Below are positions 1 to 44,817 of a stretch of DNA of 64,000 nucleotides, piece after piece. The stretch's first letter is position 1. Each line of letters starts with the position of its first letter. A program made the translations under genes and the position numbers. The notes beneath the pieces are model-generated. The model saw nothing but the letters and a program-made list of their open reading frames with translations. It was not told the origin of the DNA and ran no database searches. The DNA comes from Phormidesmis priestleyi ULC007 (lineage in GTDB: Bacteria > Cyanobacteriota > Cyanobacteriia > Leptolyngbyales > Leptolyngbyaceae): contig NZ_MPPI01000009.1 in assembly GCF_001895925.1 (NCBI RefSeq), forward strand, positions 27,869-91,868, read 5' to 3'.

Positions 1-3000
1 CTGAATCCCTTCCAGGGATTGAAACTAACACATAGTCATTCGGATCAGACGGCTCATCAAGCGTTCCAAAGAGCCTGAATCCCTTCCAGGGATTGAAACT
101 CGATAAATCGCTCAACGCGATCGCGCATCCAAAGAGTTCCAAAGAGCCTGAATCCCTTCCAGGGATTGAAACGCTCAAATCGCCGCCCAAGTCGTTGACG
201 CGCGACTGTTCCAAAGAGCCTGAATCCCTTCCAGGGATTGAAACTGAAACAGACAGACTCGTATTGCAGGCATCGCGCGTTCCAAAGAGCCTGAATCCCT
301 TCCAGGGATTGAAACGAGAGAGTCTTGCAGCCCTGAGATGTTGGCGATCGGTTCCAAAGAGCCTGAATCCCTTCCAGGGATTGAAACATCACGAACCCTC
401 CCCCCAATTGATTCGAGAGTTCGTTCCAAAGAGCCTGAATCCCTTCCAGGGATTGAAACGCGATGAGCGAGTACAACGCGAGGGGAACACTGGGTGTTCC
501 AAAGAGCCTGAATCCCTTCCAGGGATTGAAACACTCTATTTTGGCTACACCACCAGCGCCAGCGTTCCAAAGAGCCTGAATCCCTTCCAGGGATTGAAAC
601 AAATTATCAGCTAGTGGAATCAATTCTTTGCTCGAAAGTTCCAAAGAGCCTGAATCCCTTCCAGGGATTGAAACTGAGAGTCGATAGAGGGGCGCGATCG
701 TAGTCACGGGTTCCAAAGAGCCTGAATCCCTTCCAGGGATTGAAACGCAGTCGGGTGCGGCAATCTCAACCATTTCAGGGCGGTTCCAAAGAGCCTGAAT
801 CCCTTCCAGGGATTGAAACGGGAACAATAAGGGCGAACCCTTTAGCTGAGTCGCCCAATGACGTTCCAAAGAGCCTGAATCCCTTCCAGGGATTGAAACG
901 ATTAATTGGACGGCTCCAGGGGCGGCGATCGGCTCGTTCCAAAGAGCCTGAATCCCTTCCAGGGATTGAAACCGGGGGCTTGGGGCATGATGGGGTGAAA
1001 TACTAAGTTCCAAAGAGCCTGAATCCCTTCCAGGGATTGAAACGCCATAGGTCTAAGCGATCGTGCCCCTTTTTCAGGTTCCAAAGAGCCTGAATCCCTT
1101 CCAGGGATTGAAACTGAAGTCGAATCGCAGATTCAGCAAAAGCCTTATGTTCCAAAGAGCCTGAATCCCTTCCAGGGATTGAAACCAAACATCCGCACCG
1201 CAAACCGAGCCGGATAAGCGGTTCCAAAGAGCCTGAATCCCTTCCAGGGATTGAAACGAATCACAACATCAGCAAACAGCTTGTGAGCCAAGGTTCCAAA
1301 GAGCCTGAATCCCTTCCAGGGATTGAAACGCAACAATCCAAAACTGTCAGTTGTGGTGAATGTGTTCCAAAGAGCCTGAATCCCTTCCAGGGATTGAAAC
1401 GTACCGATGAGACAATCGGATCGCCTCATGACATCGTGAAAGCGGTTCCAAAGAGCCTGAATCCCTTCCAGGGATTGAAACAGAAAAATCAAGGCGGCTC
1501 AGAAAGTGGAAGAGGGGTTCCAAAGAGCCTGAATCCCTTCCAGGGATTGAAACTTAATCGTGGGAACTGCGGTGAGCGTAATCGCAGCAGGTTCCAAAGA
1601 GCCTGAATCCCTTCCAGGGATTGAAACGAAGCTGTAAACCCTGTGTTGGCGAGGTTGGTTGCCGTAACGTTCCAAAGAGCCTGAATCCCTTCCAGGGATT
1701 GAAACGAGATTGTGCGAGATGGCAAACGCAGTGGCGCGATCGCGTTCCAAAGAGCCTGAATCCCTTCCAGGGATTGAAACTCGACAAACTGAATGCCGTG
1801 CTGTTCACACAGTTGCTTGATGTTCCAAAGAGCCTGAATCCCTTCCAGGGATTGAAACTGATTTAGTCAGACGCAGTAGAAAGGTCTACTCACGTTCCAA
1901 AGAGCCTGAATCCCTTCCAGGGATTGAAACAGGACAACAAACCAGCTTACACACGCATCCGGGCCAACGTTCCAAAGAGCCTGAATCCCTTCCAGGGATT
2001 GAAACTACAAAGTGCCATAAAATTAGACAACCTGAAAACGTTCCAAAGAGCCTGAATCCCTTCCAGGGATTGAAACGTAGAGTGCGACGGTCAAGCTGAG
2101 TACGCCATTTTTGGTTCCAAAGAGCCTGAATCCCTTCCAGGGATTGAAACGTTTTGAATCTGGCGCTGAGACGTGGTGCCGCCTCTGGTTCCAAAGAGCC
2201 TGAATCCCTTCCAGGGATTGAAACGTCAAATTCTTACAGACTCGATCGGGGGCTTGAAGTTCCAAAGAGCCTGAATCCCTTCCAGGGATTGAAACGGATA
2301 ACTATGATATTTACGATCGACAACGCCTCACGTTCGTTCCAAAGAGCCTGAATCCCTTCCAGGGATTGAAACCAGTTTTCGCAGGGTCGAGGGCAGTATC
2401 AAGATCTGAGTTCCAAAGAGCCTGAATCCCTTCCAGGGATTGAAACTGAAACTGATGAATTAGCCCATACTTTGAGAGCGCGTTCCAAAGAGCCTGAATC
2501 CCTTCCAGGGATTGAAACCTGGTATCAGCAGGGCGATCAAAGAGGACATTTTTGTTCCAAGTTGTTCCAAAGAGCCTGAATCCCTTCCAGGGATTGAAAC
2601 GTCGAAGATCTAGTTGGCAAAGACAAGATCACGATCGTTCCAAAGAGCCTGAATCCCTTCCAGGGATTGAAACTTCGACAGATGGTCAGTGGTACGCCCC
2701 CGATCTTTGGTTCCAAAGAGCCTGAATCCCTTCCAGGGATTGAAACCACACCGTCCGTAAGCTTGCCCCAGTGGGTTGAGGTTCCAAAGAGCCTGAATCC
2801 CTTCCAGGGATTGAAACAGCACCAGATCGCAGCCTCCTCCCGGGTAGAAGCCAACAGTTGTTCCAAAGAGCCTGAATCCCTTCCAGGGATTGAAACAACG
2901 CAGTTGCCCAAGGACTGATTGGTAATATCGGCGGTTCCAAAGAGCCTGAATCCCTTCCAGGGATTGAAACAAGGGAGATGCCTAAACGATCTGCTTCACC

Positions 3001-6000
3001 TCTCGCAAGTTCCAAAGAGCCTGAATCCCTTCCAGGGATTGAAACATCCGCACTTCCATTGGCAGAGACACGCCTTTACCGTTCCAAAGAGCCTGAATCC
3101 CTTCCAGGGATTGAAACTAGAAATATTGATTGCCCCATTCAAATCAGCATCGCCGTGAGTTCCAAAGAGCCTGAATCCCTTCCAGGGATTGAAACGCGTG
3201 TTCCCATCTAGCGATCGTCAGGTGGCACCGCGTTCCAAAGAGCCTGAATCCCTTCCAGGGATTGAAACCTCACATTCCGCCCGACCCTGCTTGGGGAATC
3301 TACCCCGTTCCAAAGAGCCTGAATCCCTTCCAGGGATTGAAACACGCCAGAACGGGAGACACCGAGTTAGTCATCCTGTTCCAAAGAGCCTGAATCCCTT
3401 CCAGGGATTGAAACAAAGGCTTCATTCGTTGATAGCGATTTTCTGCCTAGTTCCAAAGAGCCTGAATCCCTTCCAGGGATTGAAACAGGGTACGATCGCG
3501 CGACCTCCGATTTTTATCAAGTTCCAAAGAGCCTGAATCCCTTCCAGGGATTGAAACAAGAGACTGAAGTTGAGATCGTTCGAGCGATAGAGACGCTGTT
3601 CCAAAGAGCCTGAATCCCTTCCAGGGATTGAAACCTTAAGGAATTCACAATGGATACTCAAACTCTCACGTTCCAAAGAGCCTGAATCCCTTCCAGGGAT
3701 TGAAACCAATAACGCCACCTACAGCTAAAAATACCTGGGTTATTTGGTTCCAAAGAGCCTGAATCCCTTCCAGGGATTGAAACGAGCATTAATCCGACCT
3801 GCGCCGATTCCATCCGCTCGTTCCAAAGAGCCTGAATCCCTTCCAGGGATTGAAACTTGGATCGCCCTGTGTAACTCGATGGTTTCTTGTAGTTCCAAAG
3901 AGCCTGAATCCCTTCCAGGGATTGAAACGCCCTGAAGGATTTAGCCCCATCAATGGCAAAGGCGGGGCGTTCCAAAGAGCCTGAATCCCTTCCAGGGATT
4001 GAAACTAAACTAGCTTAAGATATTCTAGGTAACATATCTAGTTCCAAAGAGCCTGAATCCCTTCCAGGGATTGAAACCCTGAGATGGGTGAAGCTCCTGT
4101 AGAAGACCCCAGGTTCCAAAGAGCCTGAATCCCTTCCAGGGATTGAAACAATGAATTGGATATGCTCCGAAAACATATCCATAGCAGTTCCAAAGAGCCT
4201 GAATCCCTTCCAGGGATTGAAACCCTGATGTAACTATTGGGATGTATGTAGATAAAGAGGTTCCAAAGAGCCTGAATCCCTTCCAGGGATTGAAACTCAG
4301 GCAACCACTGGGCAGCGCCCGTGCAGGCAGGTTCCAAAGAGCCTGAATCCCTTCCAGGGATTGAAACGTCATCTGGGTTATCCATTAGCATCTGTGATCA
4401 TCGTTCCAAAGAGCCTGAATCCCTTCCAGGGATTGAAACACTAAGTCAGGTAACAACAACACCACTGCAATTGCTACAAGTTCCAAAGAGCCTGAATCCC
4501 TTCCAGGGATTGAAACTTCTTGTGTGTTCGGTTTAGTGTGCCCAATTCTCTGGTTCCAAAGAGCCTGAATCCCTTCCAGGGATTGAAACACTTTAAGGTT
4601 TTGCACCCAACAACCCCCTTAACTGTTCCAAAGAGCCTGAATCCCTTCCAGGGATTGAAACGTCTCCATCCAGACTTGATGAATACAAAACCATACCGAA
4701 CGCTAGTTCCAAAGAGCCTGAATCCCTTCCAGGGATTGAAACGTCTCCATCCAGAACAACCGTAGCCTTACTTTCAAAGTTCCAAAGAGCCTGAATCCCT
4801 TCCAGGGATTGAAACCAGCATTCGCAACAGTGCGGAGATTTCGACCTCTTTGTTCCAAAGAGCCTGAATCCCTTCCAGGGATTGAAACATAGTAATACAT
4901 GTAAGCAGCAAGCTGGTCAAAGTGTTCCAAAGAGCCTGAATCCCTTCCAGGGATTGAAACAAACTAGTTTTAGAAACCAAGAGTAATGATCTGGCGTTCC
5001 AAAGAGCCTGAATCCCTTCCAGGGATTGAAACATGCACTTGAAGGATACGAATGAGGTCAGTGAAGTTCCAAAGAGCCTGAATCCCTTCCAGGGATTGAA
5101 ACAATAGCTTCTACTACGATGGATGGACTAAAGTAAGTTCCAAAGAGCCTGAATCCCTTCCAGGGATTGAAACCCCTTCTGTTGAAGGCAAGACTATTGC
5201 AGAGTTGCCCAGGTTCCAAAGAGCCTGAATCCCTTCCAGGGATTGAAACACCTAACTTTCCCTGCAACACTTGAGTTATCTGGTTCCAAAGAGCCTGAAT
5301 CCCTTCCAGGGATTGAAACAGGGATAGAGATAGCAGGTCACCGATACAACGCTGACAGTGGTTCCAAAGAGCCTGAATCCCTTCCAGGGATTGAAACTCA
5401 AGTTCAGTTATTTTTCAAGTTTCAGAATCGTTGTTCCAAAGAGCCTGAATCCCTTCCAGGGATTGAAACATCGAGATATTCGATAAAATTGAAAATGAAC
5501 AAGAGTTCCAAAGAGCCTGAATCCCTTCCAGGGATTGAAACATTGATGGGGATTGGTACGGGAACGTACGAGGTGTTCCAAAGAGCCTGAATCCCTTCCA
5601 GGGATTGAAACAGATTCAGTCGGTGCTTCTGAAGGTTTAGGTGATGTTCCAAAGAGCCTGAATCCCTTCCAGGGATTGAAACTTACTCACGGGGGTCTGG
5701 GGGGGGGGGACTGGAAGGTTCCAAAGAGCCTGAATCCCTTCCAGGGATTGAAACTAGCCTATCGAGAGATTGAAAACAATTGAAAATCGTTCCAAAGAGC
5801 CTGAATCCCTTCCAGGGATTGAAACTTCCAATCATCGAGCCAATCGCCGGGAGGAACAAGTTCCAAAGAGCCTGAATCCCTTCCAGGGATTGAAACGTAA
5901 AAGTCTGGCGTGTAGACCATGCAACATAGATCCGCTAGTTCCAAAGAGCCTGAATCCCTTCCAGGGATTGAAACTGAGACTGATGCAATGGCGTGGCATG

Positions 6001-9000
6001 AACTCACGAAAGTTCCAAAGAGCCTGAATCCCTTCCAGGGATTGAAACACCAGTAACCGAGAAGGGCACCAACTTACAGTGGTTCCAAAGAGCCTGAATC
6101 CCTTCCAGGGATTGAAACTGGGAATAAAGTAGCAACGAGCGGGACATTGCGTGTTCCAAAGAGCCTGAATCCCTTCCAGGGATTGAAACTAAAGACATTG
6201 GGACGCTGGTGGCAAGACTTCCTAGTTCCAAAGAGCCTGAATCCCTTCCAGGGATTGAAACCACTGAGAGGAAACTAGGGAATGTCATTATCCAAGGTTC
6301 CAAAGAGCCTGAATCCCTTCCAGGGATTGAAACGGGAGTCAATGTGAAACGAGCGCAACAGATACTTGGTTCCAAAGAGCCTGAATCCCTTCCAGGGATT
6401 GAAACCTCTCAGGGTTCGCTAACTCTCCACTCACTGCCGTGTTCCAAAGAGCCTGAATCCCTTCCAGGGATTGAAACAATGGAGAGGTTGTAGCCAGTAC
6501 TTTAGAATGGAATGTTCCAAAGAGCCTGAATCCCTTCCAGGGATTGAAACTAGACCCAACACTGAACGGGACTATTGTTCACATGGTTCCAAAGAGCCTG
6601 AATCCCTTCCAGGGATTGAAACTGAAGACCCTTGCACGTAAAGCCATCTACTGAGAAGTTCCAAAGAGCCTGAATCCCTTCCAGGGATTGAAACCGTAAG
6701 CTCTGGGCTATGCTTCGCTCCTTGGTTGGTTCCAAAGAGCCTGAATCCCTTCCAGGGATTGAAACGCCGGGAGGAACAAGGGAAATCGCATCATTAAAAG
6801 TTCCAAAGAGCCTGAATCCCTTCCAGGGATTGAAACCACTCAGTACGACTTCCCAATACGGAGTGTTTGGGTTCCAAAGAGCCTGAATCCCTTCCAGGGA
6901 TTGAAACCTACATTCCAGTTGAGTTTGCTACTGAGGAGAATGTTCCAAAGAGCCTGAATCCCTTCCAGGGATTGAAACTCAGAAGACTAGACAACTCATC
7001 GATGAAGCAGCAAGTTCCAAAGAGCCTGAATCCCTTCCAGGGATTGAAACAGAACCCACTTGCTCCCATTGACATCACACTCCCGTTCCAAAGAGCCTGA
7101 ATCCCTTCCAGGGATTGAAACGCAACTCCCACAACAGTAGGGTGGTCAACCATGTCTGTTCCAAAGAGCCTGAATCCCTTCCAGGGATTGAAACCTACAA
7201 ACTCCCTTGACTGCCAAAAAGCGCCTCAAGTTCCAAAGAGCCTGAATCCCTTCCAGGGATTGAAACTTGTAGTTATTGCGAGGGAATGAAGGGGAGATAG
7301 TGTTCCAAAGAGCCTGAATCCCTTCCAGGGATTGAAACATGGGTAGCGAGAGTAGCGATAGCGCCACTCTAGCGTTCCAAAGAGCCTGAATCCCTTCCAG
7401 GGATTGAAACAATATTTTGGCGGTTGAGTGGCTCTGGGAGGATGGGTTCCAAAGAGCCTGAATCCCTTCCAGGGATTGAAACAGCAGTATTGGCAGGATT
7501 GCCCAAGCCAGTATCAGGTTCCAAAGAGCCTGAATCCCTTCCAGGGATTGAAACTAATTACTATCCCACTAATTCATCATCATCAGTAGTTCCAAAGAGC
7601 CTGAATCCCTTCCAGGGATTGAAACGATGCGAGAACGACTGGAGGACGAAGAAAGAGCGGTTCCAAAGAGCCTGAATCCCTTCCAGGGATTGAAACAAAA
7701 CTGCTCACCCGCTAACCCTATCGAGATCACGTTCCAAAGAGCCTGAATCCCTTCCAGGGATTGAAACAGGACGAGAAACACTGACAGAATGCCCCATTAA
7801 AGTTCCAAAGAGCCTGAATCCCTTCCAGGGATTGAAACGCAGATGGATTGTCGAGGTGTGAGAGTTGCAATATGTTCCAAAGAGCCTGAATCCCTTCCAG
7901 GGATTGAAACCTCGTTGGCCAAGGCTGGGTGAACAATGCTAAACGTTCCAAAGAGCCTGAATCCCTTCCAGGGATTGAAACGTCGTTCACCTCCTGGATG
8001 AACAACCCCATTCTCAGGTTCCAAAGAGCCTGAATCCCTTCCAGGGATTGAAACTTCATTGTTCCTCCATCCCCTACGGCTTGGGGCATTTGTTCCAAAG
8101 AGCCTGAATCCCTTCCAGGGATTGAAACGACGAAGGGACTTATGGCGGCGAGGTAACTGTTTCGTTCCAAAGAGCCTGAATCCCTTCCAGGGATTGAAAC
8201 TCGTCAGGCGGTAATGCAGATTAGATTGCGCCGAAGTTCCAAAGAGCCTGAATCCCTTCCAGGGATTGAAACCAAATAATTCTCGCACACAATAAACTTT
8301 AGGGGCGTTCCAAAGAGCCTGAATCCCTTCCAGGGATTGAAACTCAATACAAAAACCCTAATTAAAGCAAAATCCTAATGTTCCAAAGAGCCTGAATCCC
8401 TTCCAGGGATTGAAACAGACGAATTTCTCGCTCGTATCCAGCCGTAAGGCGTTCCAAAGAGCCTGAATCCCTTCCAGGGATTGAAACGATATTTTCTTGC
8501 GAGGTATCTAATTCACCTCGTACGTTCCAAAGAGCCTGAATCCCTTCCAGGGATTGAAACAATTCTAAATCTGCAATTTCTTTCTCTGTTAGGGTAAAGT
8601 TCCAAAGAGCCTGAATCCCTTCCAGGGATTGAAACTTTAGGCTGCGAACGTTGAGCGTGACAATCTCTGGTTCCAAAGAGCCTGAATCCCTTCCAGGGAT
8701 TGAAACCTAGCCGACGAGCAAGCCGCGCTAACGAATCGACCGTTCCAAAGAGCCTGAATCCCTTCCAGGGATTGAAACCTGACTGCTCTGAAGAGTTGGG
8801 ACGCGATGTTAATTACGTTCCAAAGAGCCTGAATCCCTTCCAGGGATTGAAACGCAGCCAAATACCTCAGATCTAAAAATCAGGAAGTTCCAAAGAGCCT
8901 GAATCCCTTCCAGGGATTGAAACAGAGATAAATGAAGAGGTAGAGGCGATCGCGAGATGGATTCGTTCCAAAGAGCCTGAATCCCTTCCAGGGATTGAAA

Positions 9001-11561
9001 CCAATTTTATGGCGGCATTCACCCTGATTTTGAAACGTTCCAAAGAGCCTGAATCCCTTCCAGGGATTGAAACGAAAACAGTATCCTGATTCTGGACGTA
9101 AACGTCTGAGTTCCAAAGAGCCTGAATCCCTTCCAGGGATTGAAACTCGATATAGGCTTTGCAGCAGCTATCGGAGGAGCGCGTTCCAAAGAGCCTGAAT
9201 CCCTTCCAGGGATTGAAACCTTTAACGCTTTCCTGCTGCTGGTGCGAAGCGAAGGTTCCAAAGAGCCTGAATCCCTTCCAGGGATTGAAACGCTGAACTT
9301 GGCGGCTCTCCAGGGGGCAAGGAATCAGGTTCCAAAGAGCCTGAATCCCTTCCAGGGATTGAAACGAAATTCCGGGCATGGGTACACCCGACGCGGATCA
9401 GTTGTTCCAAAGAGCCTGAATCCCTTCCAGGGATTGAAACGGGAAGGATGCCCCGATATCGCTTGCAGCAAGAGGCGTGAAGGTTCCAAAGAGCCTGAAT
9501 CCCTTCCAGGGATTGAAACGCCATGAATAATCAGCCGCATTTTGCTCTAATAGGGTTCCAAAGAGCCTGAATCCCTTCCAGGGATTGAAACGAGTACGAG
9601 TCCGTAGCTGCCATCGCGGTAGGTCGGAATGCGTTCCAAAGAGCCTGAATCCCTTCCAGGGATTGAAACTAAGGGACGATCGCGACTTCTGGATAGACGA
9701 GTTTGTTCCAAAGAGCCTGAATCCCTTCCAGGGATTGAAACAGATACAGAATCCGCTTATAAGAAAGGCAGTCATGTTCCAAAGAGCCTGAATCCCTTCC
9801 AGGGATTGAAACTGCGGAGTCGATTAGCTCATTTAATGGCGGCAACTCTGTTCCAAAGAGCCTGAATCCCTTCCAGGGATTGAAACATGACACCGAGCGA
9901 TCTCTTAACATTCAAGTGCCCGTTCCAAAGAGCCTGAATCCCTTCCAGGGATTGAAACCTAGATCCTGAAGTGCAAAGAGCGATCGAGGGCAAGCGTTCC
10001 AAAGAGCCTGAATCCCTTCCAGGGATTGAAACGACTCGGACTCAGAATTTTGAGAGGCTTTAGAGGAGGTTCCAAAGAGCCTGAATCCCTTCCAGGGATT
10101 GAAACGGAAGTTCTGAAGCTAGTCGCACAGGGATTAACAGGTTCCAAAGAGCCTGAATCCCTTCCAGGGATTGAAACAAGACTTTCTCACGAGATGCTGA
10201 CAACATCTCGGCAGTTCCAAAGAGCCTGAATCCCTTCCAGGGATTGAAACGGATCGTCGAACGAGAGATGAGGAGGGCGATCGCGGTTCCAAAGAGCCTG
10301 AATCCCTTCCAGGGATTGAAACGGTTCTAGGCGTTGCCCTGACCACCGCATGGGGTTCCAAAGAGCCTGAATCCCTTCCAGGGATTGAAACGAAATTATG
10401 GGACTCGCTGCCGTGCCGCCCAGGGGTTCCAAAGAGCCTGAATCCCTTCCAGGGATTGAAACATCTAGCAAAGTTTGCCAGTAGAGACGATCGCTAAAGT
10501 TCCAAAGAGCCTGAATCCCTTCCAGGGATTGAAACAGAAATGAAACTAAAGGCTCTACCTATCACGTTGATTGTTCCAAAGAGCCTGAATCCCTTCCAGG
10601 GATTGAAACCAATCTGAGCTAGAGAAGATGTCGAAAGCTGCGAGTGGTTCCAAAGAGCCTGAATCCCTTCCAGGGATTGAAACACGATCTCCGGGGGTAG
10701 AACTGCCCATGAGCTTAAGTTCCAAAGAGCCTGAATCCCTTCCAGGGATTGAAACGCAGTGCAAGCTGGATCGATCGGAGACTTCCTTGAAGTTCCAAAG
10801 AGCCTGAATCCCTTCCAGGGATTGAAACAACCCCATTGCGCGAAGAAAAGGCATTCGATGTTTGGGTTCCAAAGAGCCTGAATCCCTTCCAGGGATTGAA
10901 ACTGCCATTATTACAACCACATTTCACCTCAATTTTAGGTTCCAAAGAGCCTGAATCCCTTCCAGGGATTGAAACCAAGCGCTGGCAACGGTGCAGCAGC
11001 TAGGACATCCCGGTTCCAAAGAGCCTGAATCCCTTCCAGGGATTGAAACTGGGTGTGACTTCGAGAAAGCAACGATCGAGCTTGAGTTCCAAAGAGCCTG
11101 AATCCCTTCCAGGGATTGAAACGAACTCATCGATAAAGCACAATCGAAGGGCCGCAAGGTTCCAAAGAGCCTGAATCCCTTCCAGGGATTGAAACCCAAG
11201 TAGTAGCCAAATTTGTGCAACTCAAGCCGTGTTCCAAAGAGCCTGAATCCCTTCCAGGGATTGAAACGCATTATTCAGTCGGCGCTGATCATCGTGGCTC
11301 AGTTCCAAAGAGCCTGAATCCCTTCCAGGGATTGAAACGGTTTTGGGCATCAGAACTGATACCCTCGATCGCGATTGCTCGTTCCAAAGAGCCTGAATCC
11401 CTTCCAGGGATTGAAACCGAGTCGCTGCTCTGCCTGTACACGGTAGATATTCGTTCCAAAGAGCCTGAATCTCTTCCAGGGATTGAAACAGAGTAGATGC
11501 TTGAGTACTTGGGATTAGACATTAGTTCCAAAGAGCCTGAATCCCTTCCAGGGATTGAAAC
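1..11561 (+). CRISPR. Giant CRISPR array, 159 repeats and 158 spacers
   Basis: The 37-bp repeat starts GTTCCAAAGAGCC and ends GGGATTGAAAC. It has an internal stem AATCCC/GGGATT around a 5-base loop. I counted 159 copies; the first is cut by the window edge (bases 1-25). The mean period is 73 bp and spacers run about 32-45 bp. By eye all repeats are identical except the one at 11453-11489 (C to T at repeat position 20). The ATTGAAAC end is the usual 8-nt crRNA handle, so transcription should run left to right. The single variant lies next to the right end, which suggests that end is the old trailer and that the leader and newest spacers lie off the left edge. Repeats of this length and 3' end accompany type I-D and III systems in cyanobacteria; the subtype is inferred. 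No cas gene is in the window. Confidence 0.99.
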
Positions 11562-36358: not shown

Positions 36359-36520
36359 AAAAAGCCCGAAAGAGCCGTAACAGACTATGGCTGTTAAGCG
36401 TCTCTCCCGGGCTTTTGTCCCGCCGTGTGACTGCCTGCTCTAATGCAGACAGTTTGCTTCTCTCGGACCAGTCATTAAACCTTGCATTGCTTAATTGAGG
36501 CTTAATCGGAACCCTAGAAG
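36359..36520 (-). promoter_or_regulatory. Guanidine-I (ykkC) riboswitch with terminator expression platform
   Basis: On the minus strand the conserved blocks appear in order: CTAGGGTTCCG (around 36506-36516), CTGGTCCGAGAGAAGC (around 36458-36473), ACACGGCGGGA (around 36417-36427) and AAAAGCCCGGGAGAG (36402-36416). Downstream, CTCTTTCGGGCTTTTT (36359-36374) can pair with AAAAGCCCGGGAGAG to make a terminator that ends in a T run. That last block is also part of the aptamer, so guanidine binding should prevent the terminator and switch the downstream binding-protein gene ON. The leader ends about 57 bp before its ATG. Confidence 0.95.
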
Positions 36521-36653
36521 CCATAAATTGTTCTAACGCGGAAAGGATTTCTTTAATGAGACAAGTGACTGCTCCTAGTTGCTGAGTCTAATGTCACTAT
36601 TTGTAACACGCAACAACCAGAAAAAAGTATCTCAGATCACAGTTTTGCTACGG

Positions 36654-44253: not shown

Positions 44254-44607
44254 TGGCAACTGGACTTATTGGAGTCAACGAAGAGGAAATTACCCCGGAA
44301 CGTCTCAAATGATGGCATTAGCTCTCAAAAGACAGAAAGGGAAATGTCCTGAATGTGGATTACACTTTCACCCGGAAGATCAAATAGAAATTCATCACCT
44401 GGATGGAAACTATAGGAATAACCGGAAGGAAAATTTGACCGCTACCCATCGTCACTGCCACGACCGGATACACGGTGGATTAAGCATTCTTTCACAACAA
44501 TTAAGTACCCATGCCAAGGGTCAACTCGGAGAGGAGCCGGATGAAAGAAAACTTTCACGTCCGGTTTTGAAGCCAAGCCGGGAGGGCGATCTCCCGGCTT
44601 AGGTTAG
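44212..44607 (+). mobile_element. Group II intron, 3' fragment (HNH remnant plus domains V and VI)
   Basis: Domain V is at 44534-44569. It starts GAGCCGGATGAAAG, has the loop AAAA and ends CTTTCACGTCCGG; the AGC triad and the AC bulge are in place. Domain VI follows, with arms AGCCGGGAG / CTCCCGGCT and a tail TTAGGTTAG ending near 44607. Upstream, 44231-44602 encodes the C-terminus of an intron-encoded protein. The 5' half of the intron and the reverse transcriptase are missing, so it cannot splice or move by itself. The left junction cuts hicA. I cannot find the rest of hicA after the 3' end, so a deletion or recombination is likely. Confidence 0.9.
44231..44602 (+). pseudogene. C-terminal HNH endonuclease remnant of an intron-encoded protein
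   Basis: This stretch reads NPYDGNWTYWSQRRGNYPG, then LALKRQKGKCPECGLHF and IEIHHLDGN followed by ENLTATHRHCHDRIHGG. That is the maturase-to-endonuclease end of cyanobacterial group II intron proteins, with the HNH histidines and the zinc cysteine pair. The reverse transcriptase and most of domain X are missing. The frame is open further upstream, but those codons are hicA read out of frame. The nominal stop falls within domain VI. Confidence 0.88.
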
Positions 44608-44817
44608 CGGCTTTACGCATCACGACTTGTAAAAAAATCGATTAATCTACCGATTTCAGCCTGAAATTCTTAAACTGATAGAGAGCTTAGTTTTTTACAC
44701 GGCTTAAGATTAGAAGGCTCTGGTTAATTTAGTAGGTTTCTTTCTACGATCGGCGGTGTGGGCTAACGTATAGGTAGCACACCCTTTTGTATACACATCA
44801 AGAGGAAAGACAGAATT

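Follow-up and report, generated by a model that had tools for sequence, protein, structure and literature searches.

A long type I-D CRISPR array and its cas operon

We analyzed a stretch of 64,000 nt of contig NZ_MPPI01000009.1 from the cyanobacterium Phormidesmis priestleyi ULC007 (hereafter the window; coordinates are window positions unless marked otherwise), which opens inside a long array of clustered regularly interspaced short palindromic repeats (CRISPR) built on the 37-nt repeat GTTCCAAAGAGCCTGAATCCCTTCCAGGGATTGAAAC (1-11561, + strand). The window begins within a repeat, and the array extends approximately 3 kb farther upstream, to G000:C90:24783. Within the window there are 157 exact copies of the repeat, one with a single mismatch and one partial copy (1-25), giving 158 spacers. 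Genome-wide, 189 repeats were found at three or fewer mismatches, all on the + strand and all on this contig (C90); two stretches of N break the upstream part of the array, where further repeats beyond the 189 readable ones may lie. The upstream-extended set comprises 189 readable spacers, one truncated by N and one with an attached repeat base. Spacers upstream of the window are designated by u and those within it by w.

Directly upstream of the array is a type I-D operon in the order cas3', a HepT/MntA pair, cas10d, csc2, csc1, cas6, cas4 and cas1, followed by the leader and then the array. The I-D effector genes scored above cut-off (Cas10d or Csc3, TIGR03174, 1044.7 bits; Csc2, TIGR03157, 370.2; Csc1, TIGR03159, 235.7), as did the separate I-D Cas3' helicase (TIGR03158), Cas6 (TIGR01877), Cas4 (TIGR00372) and Cas1d (TIGR04093). 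A putative cas2 between cas1 and the array was read from the DNA by eye. The closest Cas1 in the best 80 loci of the matches listed, 96% identical, is that of Leptolyngbyaceae cyanobacterium CSU_1_3. The HepT/MntA pair, a type VII toxin-antitoxin system, is located inside the cas locus (L009:7850-8694).

New CRISPR spacers enter at the leader end. Given a leader upstream and, at the opposite end, a mismatch in the penultimate repeat (11453-11489, +), the youngest spacers lie on the left and the oldest on the right.

The locus resembles CRISPR1 of Synechocystis 6803, also type I-D, in its gene order (Cas3', Cas10d/Csc3, Csc2, Csc1, Cas6, Cas4, Cas1d) and in the array of 37-nt repeats that immediately follows these genes. 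A GTN protospacer-adjacent motif (PAM) accompanies most of the best-supported targets described below, comparable to the GTA and GTC PAMs in PMC6604393. The present locus differs in its size, with 189 readable repeats plus the content of the N stretches, and in the HepT/MntA genes between cas3' and cas10d. The same paper, whose subject is CGATCG methylation inside type I-D array repeats, also places CGATCG within the Synechocystis repeat, whereas here the motif is present in spacers and absent from the repeat (PMC6604393).

CGATCG divides the array into three blocks

An earlier note on this DNA had reported that CGATCG, the core of the cyanobacterial HIP1 motif, occurs in 10 of the first 48 window spacers, none of the next 74 and eight of the last 36. 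Our count agrees in full: exactly 18 of the 158 window spacers contain CGATCG, and these are the spacers starting at 100, 316, 675, 900, 1044, 1706, 2225, 2296, 3196, 3487, 8924, 9670, 9959, 10251, 10463, 10756, 11050 and 11339. We refer to the younger, leader-side spacers as block A (window part 26-3520, +; 48 spacers, 10 with CGATCG, joined by 31 more readable spacers upstream, four with CGATCG), to the empty middle as block B (3558-8886, +; 74 spacers, none with CGATCG and seven with GATC) and to the oldest part as block C (8924-11524, +; 36 spacers, eight with CGATCG).

The note had further judged so long an empty run to be improbable by chance, and shuffling supports this. When the order of the window spacers was shuffled (n = 157, the last two spacers being merged), an empty run of at least 74 appeared in 11 of 200,000 trials, and in the upstream-extended set, where 22 of the 189 spacers are CGATCG-positive, a run of at least 74 appeared in 21 of 200,000. 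When shuffles were conditioned on spacer GC content (GC), motif-masked CpG and length, a run of at least 74 appeared in 150 of 200,000; under the same conditioning, 8.3 CGATCG spacers were expected in block B and none was seen (9 of 200,000). The zoning is therefore real, in a type I-D array that is very long but ordinary in other respects.

Composition of the blocks

Per kilobase of possible starts, CGATCG occurs 5.7 times in block A (14 of 79 spacers) and 7.1 times in block C (8 of 36), compared to 4.5 times in the host part of the window. Its frequency in block B is 0 per kb, but only 0.3-0.5 per kb would be expected from the composition of that block, so block B is non-enriched rather than strongly depleted. 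With CGATCG masked, block B differed from its flanks in host-likeness (p 0.0008), GC (0.002), CpG (0.005) and spacer length (0.01; all uncorrected); blocks A and C were similar to each other in host-likeness (p 0.45), GC (0.94) and length (0.51), CpG being outside this comparison. The context of GATC also differs, in that 22 of 45 GATC sites in A and C, compared to 0 of 7 in B, lie within CGATCG (p 0.016). The flanks resemble HIP1-enriched cyanobacterial DNA and the middle block does not.

Block B has some internal structure. The last 14 nt of spacer 5826 (5826-5859, +) are identical to the first 14 nt of spacer 6766 (6766-6799, +), indicating overlapping protospacers; judged from the sequences, one target was probably acquired twice. 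Two neighbouring spacers, 4662 and 4743 (4662-4778, +), have their first 13 nt in common. Beginning with spacer 5826, a sub-block of 34 spacers chosen by eye (5826-8235, +) is even in GC (standard deviation [SD] 0.057) and length (SD 1.4). Its GC SD is the lowest of any 34-spacer window (permutation P 0.0245), and its length variance differed from that of the rest of B (p 0.02). This even run with its overlapping pair may derive from one phage. Of what a single-phage burst would leave, the one overlapping pair and the even GC were seen, and no spacers of block B were matched to a common phage genome.

Other arrays and the second CRISPR locus of the host

For comparison, we examined 46 I-D arrays found in the best 80 loci of the matches listed, each locus being cut at a 10 kb flank. 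These other cyanobacterial arrays contain CGATCG in 49 of 1375 spacers, compared to 58.6 expected if spacers were host-like. With a rate so near expectation, HIP1-bearing spacers are ordinary and the empty block is the exception. None of the seven arrays with at least three CGATCG spacers has comparable zoning (lowest P 0.04). One of the 46 arrays, that of Hydrococcus rivularis (L129), lacks CGATCG in all of its 110 spacers, compared to 8.1 expected if host-like (P 0.0003).

The host has a second cas1 on another contig (C48), beside type III genes, of which a Cmr4-like gene scored above and a Cmr2-like gene below cut-off. The two arrays there are HIP1-rich throughout, with CGATCG in 13 of 89 spacers and a longest gap of 16.

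Targets of the spacers

The blocks were searched evenly against the same 388 cyanobacterial genomes, with few candidates scored per genome; HIP1 itself aids seeding in A and C. Non-self places numbered 65 for block A, 8 for B and 19 for C, and re-alignment covered 29, 8 and 19 of these, respectively. Among the re-aligned places, a full-length match of at least 80% was found for 7 of 79 spacers in A, none of 74 in B and none of 36 in C. Of these block A spacers, u2684, u1735, w1781 and w3118 match TnpB genes (Pfam OrfB_IS605) and u1069 an IscB element. The remaining two, u2612 (29/35) and w1186 (28/35), have neither a GTN PAM nor a known target element and may be chance matches.

Spacer w1781 (1781-1821, +) matches the TnpB gene of Nodularia phage kac68v161 at 34 of 41 positions and TnpB genes in four cyanobacterial loci at 32-33 of 41, with the PAM GTT at all four. 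Spacer w3118 (3118-3158, +) matches a TnpB gene at 36 of 41 (PAM GTT) and a second locus at 32 of 41 (PAM GTC), and w3415 (3415-3449, +) matches the same Nodularia phage gene as w1781 at 29 of 35, without a GTN PAM. At all six loci tested, the target of u1069 is HEARO, the IscB omega RNA, adjoining a gene with RRXRR and HNH domains; this spacer also matches HEARO on a viral contig resembling phage N-1 (27/36, PAM GTC). For spacer u2540 (25/33, PAM GTG), the match is to a TnpA gene of IS200 type adjoining a TnpB gene. The TnpB gene of the Nodularia phage (L099:8038-9318) and the HEARO RNA of the N-1-like contig (L225:20693-20912) are examples of cyanophage DNA carrying such elements. In total, seven block A spacers match transposon-type elements (five TnpB, one TnpA, one IscB), compared to none in B or C, although 21 of the 60 target loci in this comparison came via block A spacers or phage searches, which favours the count of 7 of 79. 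These matches support block A as a record of mobile cyanobacterial DNA; they do not explain the motif, because none of the seven spacers contains CGATCG.

Of the 29 re-aligned loci for block A, 14 had a GTN-type PAM, as expected for type I-D (u1069, 7 of 8; w1781, 4 of 4; w3118, 2 of 2; u2684, 1 of 2; u1735, 0 of 4; other A loci, 0 of 9), compared to 0 of 8 loci for block B and 2 of 19 for block C. For block C, a candidate target of w9813 is a gene on a Leptolyngbya plasmid, with 27 of 37 positions identical and a GTC PAM, slightly over control; the translated match breaks down in its second half, and the target gene has no Pfam family.

In the arrays of the second locus, 4 of 89 spacers scored above control. 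Two of them match TnpB genes, the match of a third lies next to a TnpB gene of the host's own, and the fourth matches an IscB gene, though only just above control (8.09, compared to a control maximum of 8.03). Both CRISPR loci of the host contain spacers matching TnpB, TnpA or IscB elements.

CGATCG in phages and plasmids

Cyanophages differ widely in CGATCG content. In a sample of eight (50 kb of N-1 and 20 kb of each of the others), A-4L, Ma-LMM01, Pf-WMP3 and Lbo402-yong5 were free of the motif, whereas N-1, A-1, kac68v161 and PaV-LD carried it at approximately 5- to 7-fold the frequency expected from base composition. CGATCG is absent from the whole genomes of Pf-WMP3, Pf-WMP4, TR020 and Lbo402-yong5 and from 50 kb of Mic1. 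Six plasmid stretches had between 0.10 and 3.15 copies per kb, and all but one of them exceeded the composition expectation; low values were seen in plasmids of Leptolyngbya BL0902 (0.10 per kb; 2 in 20 kb, compared to 5.8 expected) and Nostoc UHCC 0302 (0.30 per kb).

We considered CGATCG density as a marker of lifestyle and rejected it: N-1 and A-1, which we take to be lytic, are enriched, the Leptolyngbya phage Lbo402-yong5 has an integrase gene and no CGATCG genome-wide, and the BL0902 plasmid has only two copies. CGATCG content seems to track phage lineage, not lifestyle.

Among the phages read, the Saffermanviridae (Pf-WMP3, Pf-WMP4, A-4L and TR020) resemble block B in being CGATCG-free in the DNA read; their GC is 0.44-0.52 and their hosts are Leptolyngbya, Phormidium, Anabaena and Arthronema. 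They differ in that Pf-WMP4, TR020 and the part of A-4L read have no GATC (Pf-WMP3 has 87), compared to seven GATC sites in block B. No block B spacer scored above control against the Saffermanviridae and 28 viral contigs with their terminase; single-sequence terminase scans of viral contigs had given 1, 0 and 2 relatives.

GATC is missing from Pf-WMP4, TR020 and Lbo402-yong5 (0, compared to 159-192 expected in each) and from 20 kb of A-4L (0, compared to 75). Among the 28 viral contigs that the terminase profile had picked out, ten are likewise GATC-free (L199, L201, L203, L204, L206, L207, L209, L210, L214 and L215), two of which, L210 and L214, equal A-4L and Pf-WMP4 in record length. The counts suggest selection against GATC in these phage lineages.

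Other features of the window

Two further features lie outside the array. A Guanidine-I riboswitch (36402-36528, - strand) is located between ABC transporter genes for an NMT1-like binding protein and an ATPase, and matches to group II intron domains (44531-44660, +) overlap and follow an open reading frame with an HNH endonuclease domain.

Interpretation of the zoning

The earlier note had proposed that the blocks record two classes of invader, HIP1-rich plasmids or temperate elements and HIP1-poor lytic phages. We consider it probable that the zoning reflects two pools of invader DNA, which is the best reading of the flank enrichment, the composition of block B and the HIP1-rich second locus. 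The assignment of plasmids and temperate elements to one pool and lytic phages to the other is not supported, given the enrichment in N-1 and A-1 and the absence of the motif from Lbo402-yong5. The database search that the note had suggested for the blocks yielded TnpB, TnpA and IscB targets for block A and no credible target for block B.

In the explanation that we favour, the array is ordered in time. Blocks C and A would have been drawn from HIP1-enriched DNA, a composition found in the host, many plasmids and some cyanobacterial phages. Between them, 74 successive surviving spacers would have been acquired over a long period from DNA without HIP1 enrichment, the most likely source being one or a few phage lineages lacking CGATCG. 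Taken as a whole, we hold this account of HIP1-enriched C and A separated by a long HIP1-non-enriched period, likely one of phage, to be somewhat more probable than its negation.

Several results weigh against this reading. Block B has no credible protospacer in the phage collection, nor by blastn in 72,556 plasmids, where long matches cross repeats and are taken to be other arrays and the rest are short. The 387 other cyanobacterial genomes gave only the eight places noted above, all of them weak and lacking a GTN PAM. Nothing credible came from four pattern scans of viral contigs, three of them based on a guessed reading frame, or from comparing the spacers, without gaps, to 735 kb of DNA from phages and viral contigs. 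Because no block B protospacer was found, we can only infer that the source of the block was phage; its reading as a period of time is likewise an inference. The lower frequency of GATC outside HIP1 in B falls short of significance (p 0.09). When GATC was masked, a composition score contrasting host and phage proved too weak as a classifier of phage origin (B versus A and C, p 0.05) and was rejected for that use; the same score fails to separate B from the second CRISPR locus of the host (p 0.50). Over the 35 comparison arrays with sufficient expectation, CGATCG was not significantly over-dispersed (2432 of 20,000). The runs test that the earlier note had proposed found no significant clustering (35 runs, with as few in 178,151 of 200,000 shuffles), but this test is weak for a single empty block because 18 isolated positives permit at most 37 runs. 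Scans for the best middle segment were also non-significant: the scan on CGATCG chose 3558-9670, a result reached by 5 of 60 shuffles, and across all measures 3-5 of 60 shuffles did as well, with the other measures giving different boundaries.

Alternative explanations

One alternative is that block B is an array segment that arose in a different strain, under attack by a different set of invaders, and was recombined into this array through identical repeats, in which case the zoning would record array shuffling. Because 157 of the 158 full repeats in the window are exact, recombination would be possible and would leave no scar in the repeats. Against this, G095, the sole genome of the same genus sampled, gave no match to block B spacers in a search of limited sensitivity. 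We regard an imported segment as unlikely. Similarly unlikely, in our estimate, is a block B made up mostly of HIP1-poor plasmid or other mobile DNA instead of phage. The wide spread of CGATCG among plasmids, down to the BL0902 and Nostoc UHCC 0302 values, is compatible with such a source. However, five of the six plasmid stretches exceed their composition expectation, none of the 74 block B spacers scored above control against the 60 transposon target loci, and the plasmid collection held no credible block B protospacer.

That sparse positives simply left a long gap by chance is, in our judgment, very improbable. The runs test and the CGATCG segment scan would fit this explanation, as would a ranking of 372 k-mers that was led by CGATC (z 10.1), a substring of CGATCG, with CGATCG itself next (z 6.0, family-wise P 0.05). 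However, CGATCG was a motif known beforehand for cyanobacteria, the longest-run test on the extended set gave a rare result, and block B differs from its flanks even with the motif masked. Least probable of all is that A and C derive mostly from the host or near-host chromosome by self-acquisition, with only B truly foreign: both flanks have the host CGATCG rate and a host-like composition, but searches of the host genome matched the array alone, and the host's own TnpB loci matched no I-D spacer above control. In the host searches, query pieces were recovered at their own places in 73 of 79, 68 of 73 and 35 of 36 cases, which leaves room for a few targets to have escaped.

Implications

If two pools of invader DNA underlie the zoning, HIP1 may serve as a built-in tag on spacers, distinguishing a HIP1-adapted from a HIP1-free source pool even without a protospacer, and long arrays could be read as a dated log, which here would contain one long excursion. 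We advance this generalization tentatively, placing it slightly below an even chance. The idea that HIP1 in a spacer marks the source of the invader was not found in a literature search, which covered titles and the openings of abstracts, with the subscription literature mostly outside its reach. In the leader-side block, a native type I-D system stores spacers directed at elements of TnpB and IscB, which are RNA-guided and related to Cas12 and Cas9. Most CRISPR spacers lack a known target, and a host-specific word present in some invaders and missing from others would let such orphan spacers be sorted by pool and would turn long arrays into a readable record of past attacks.

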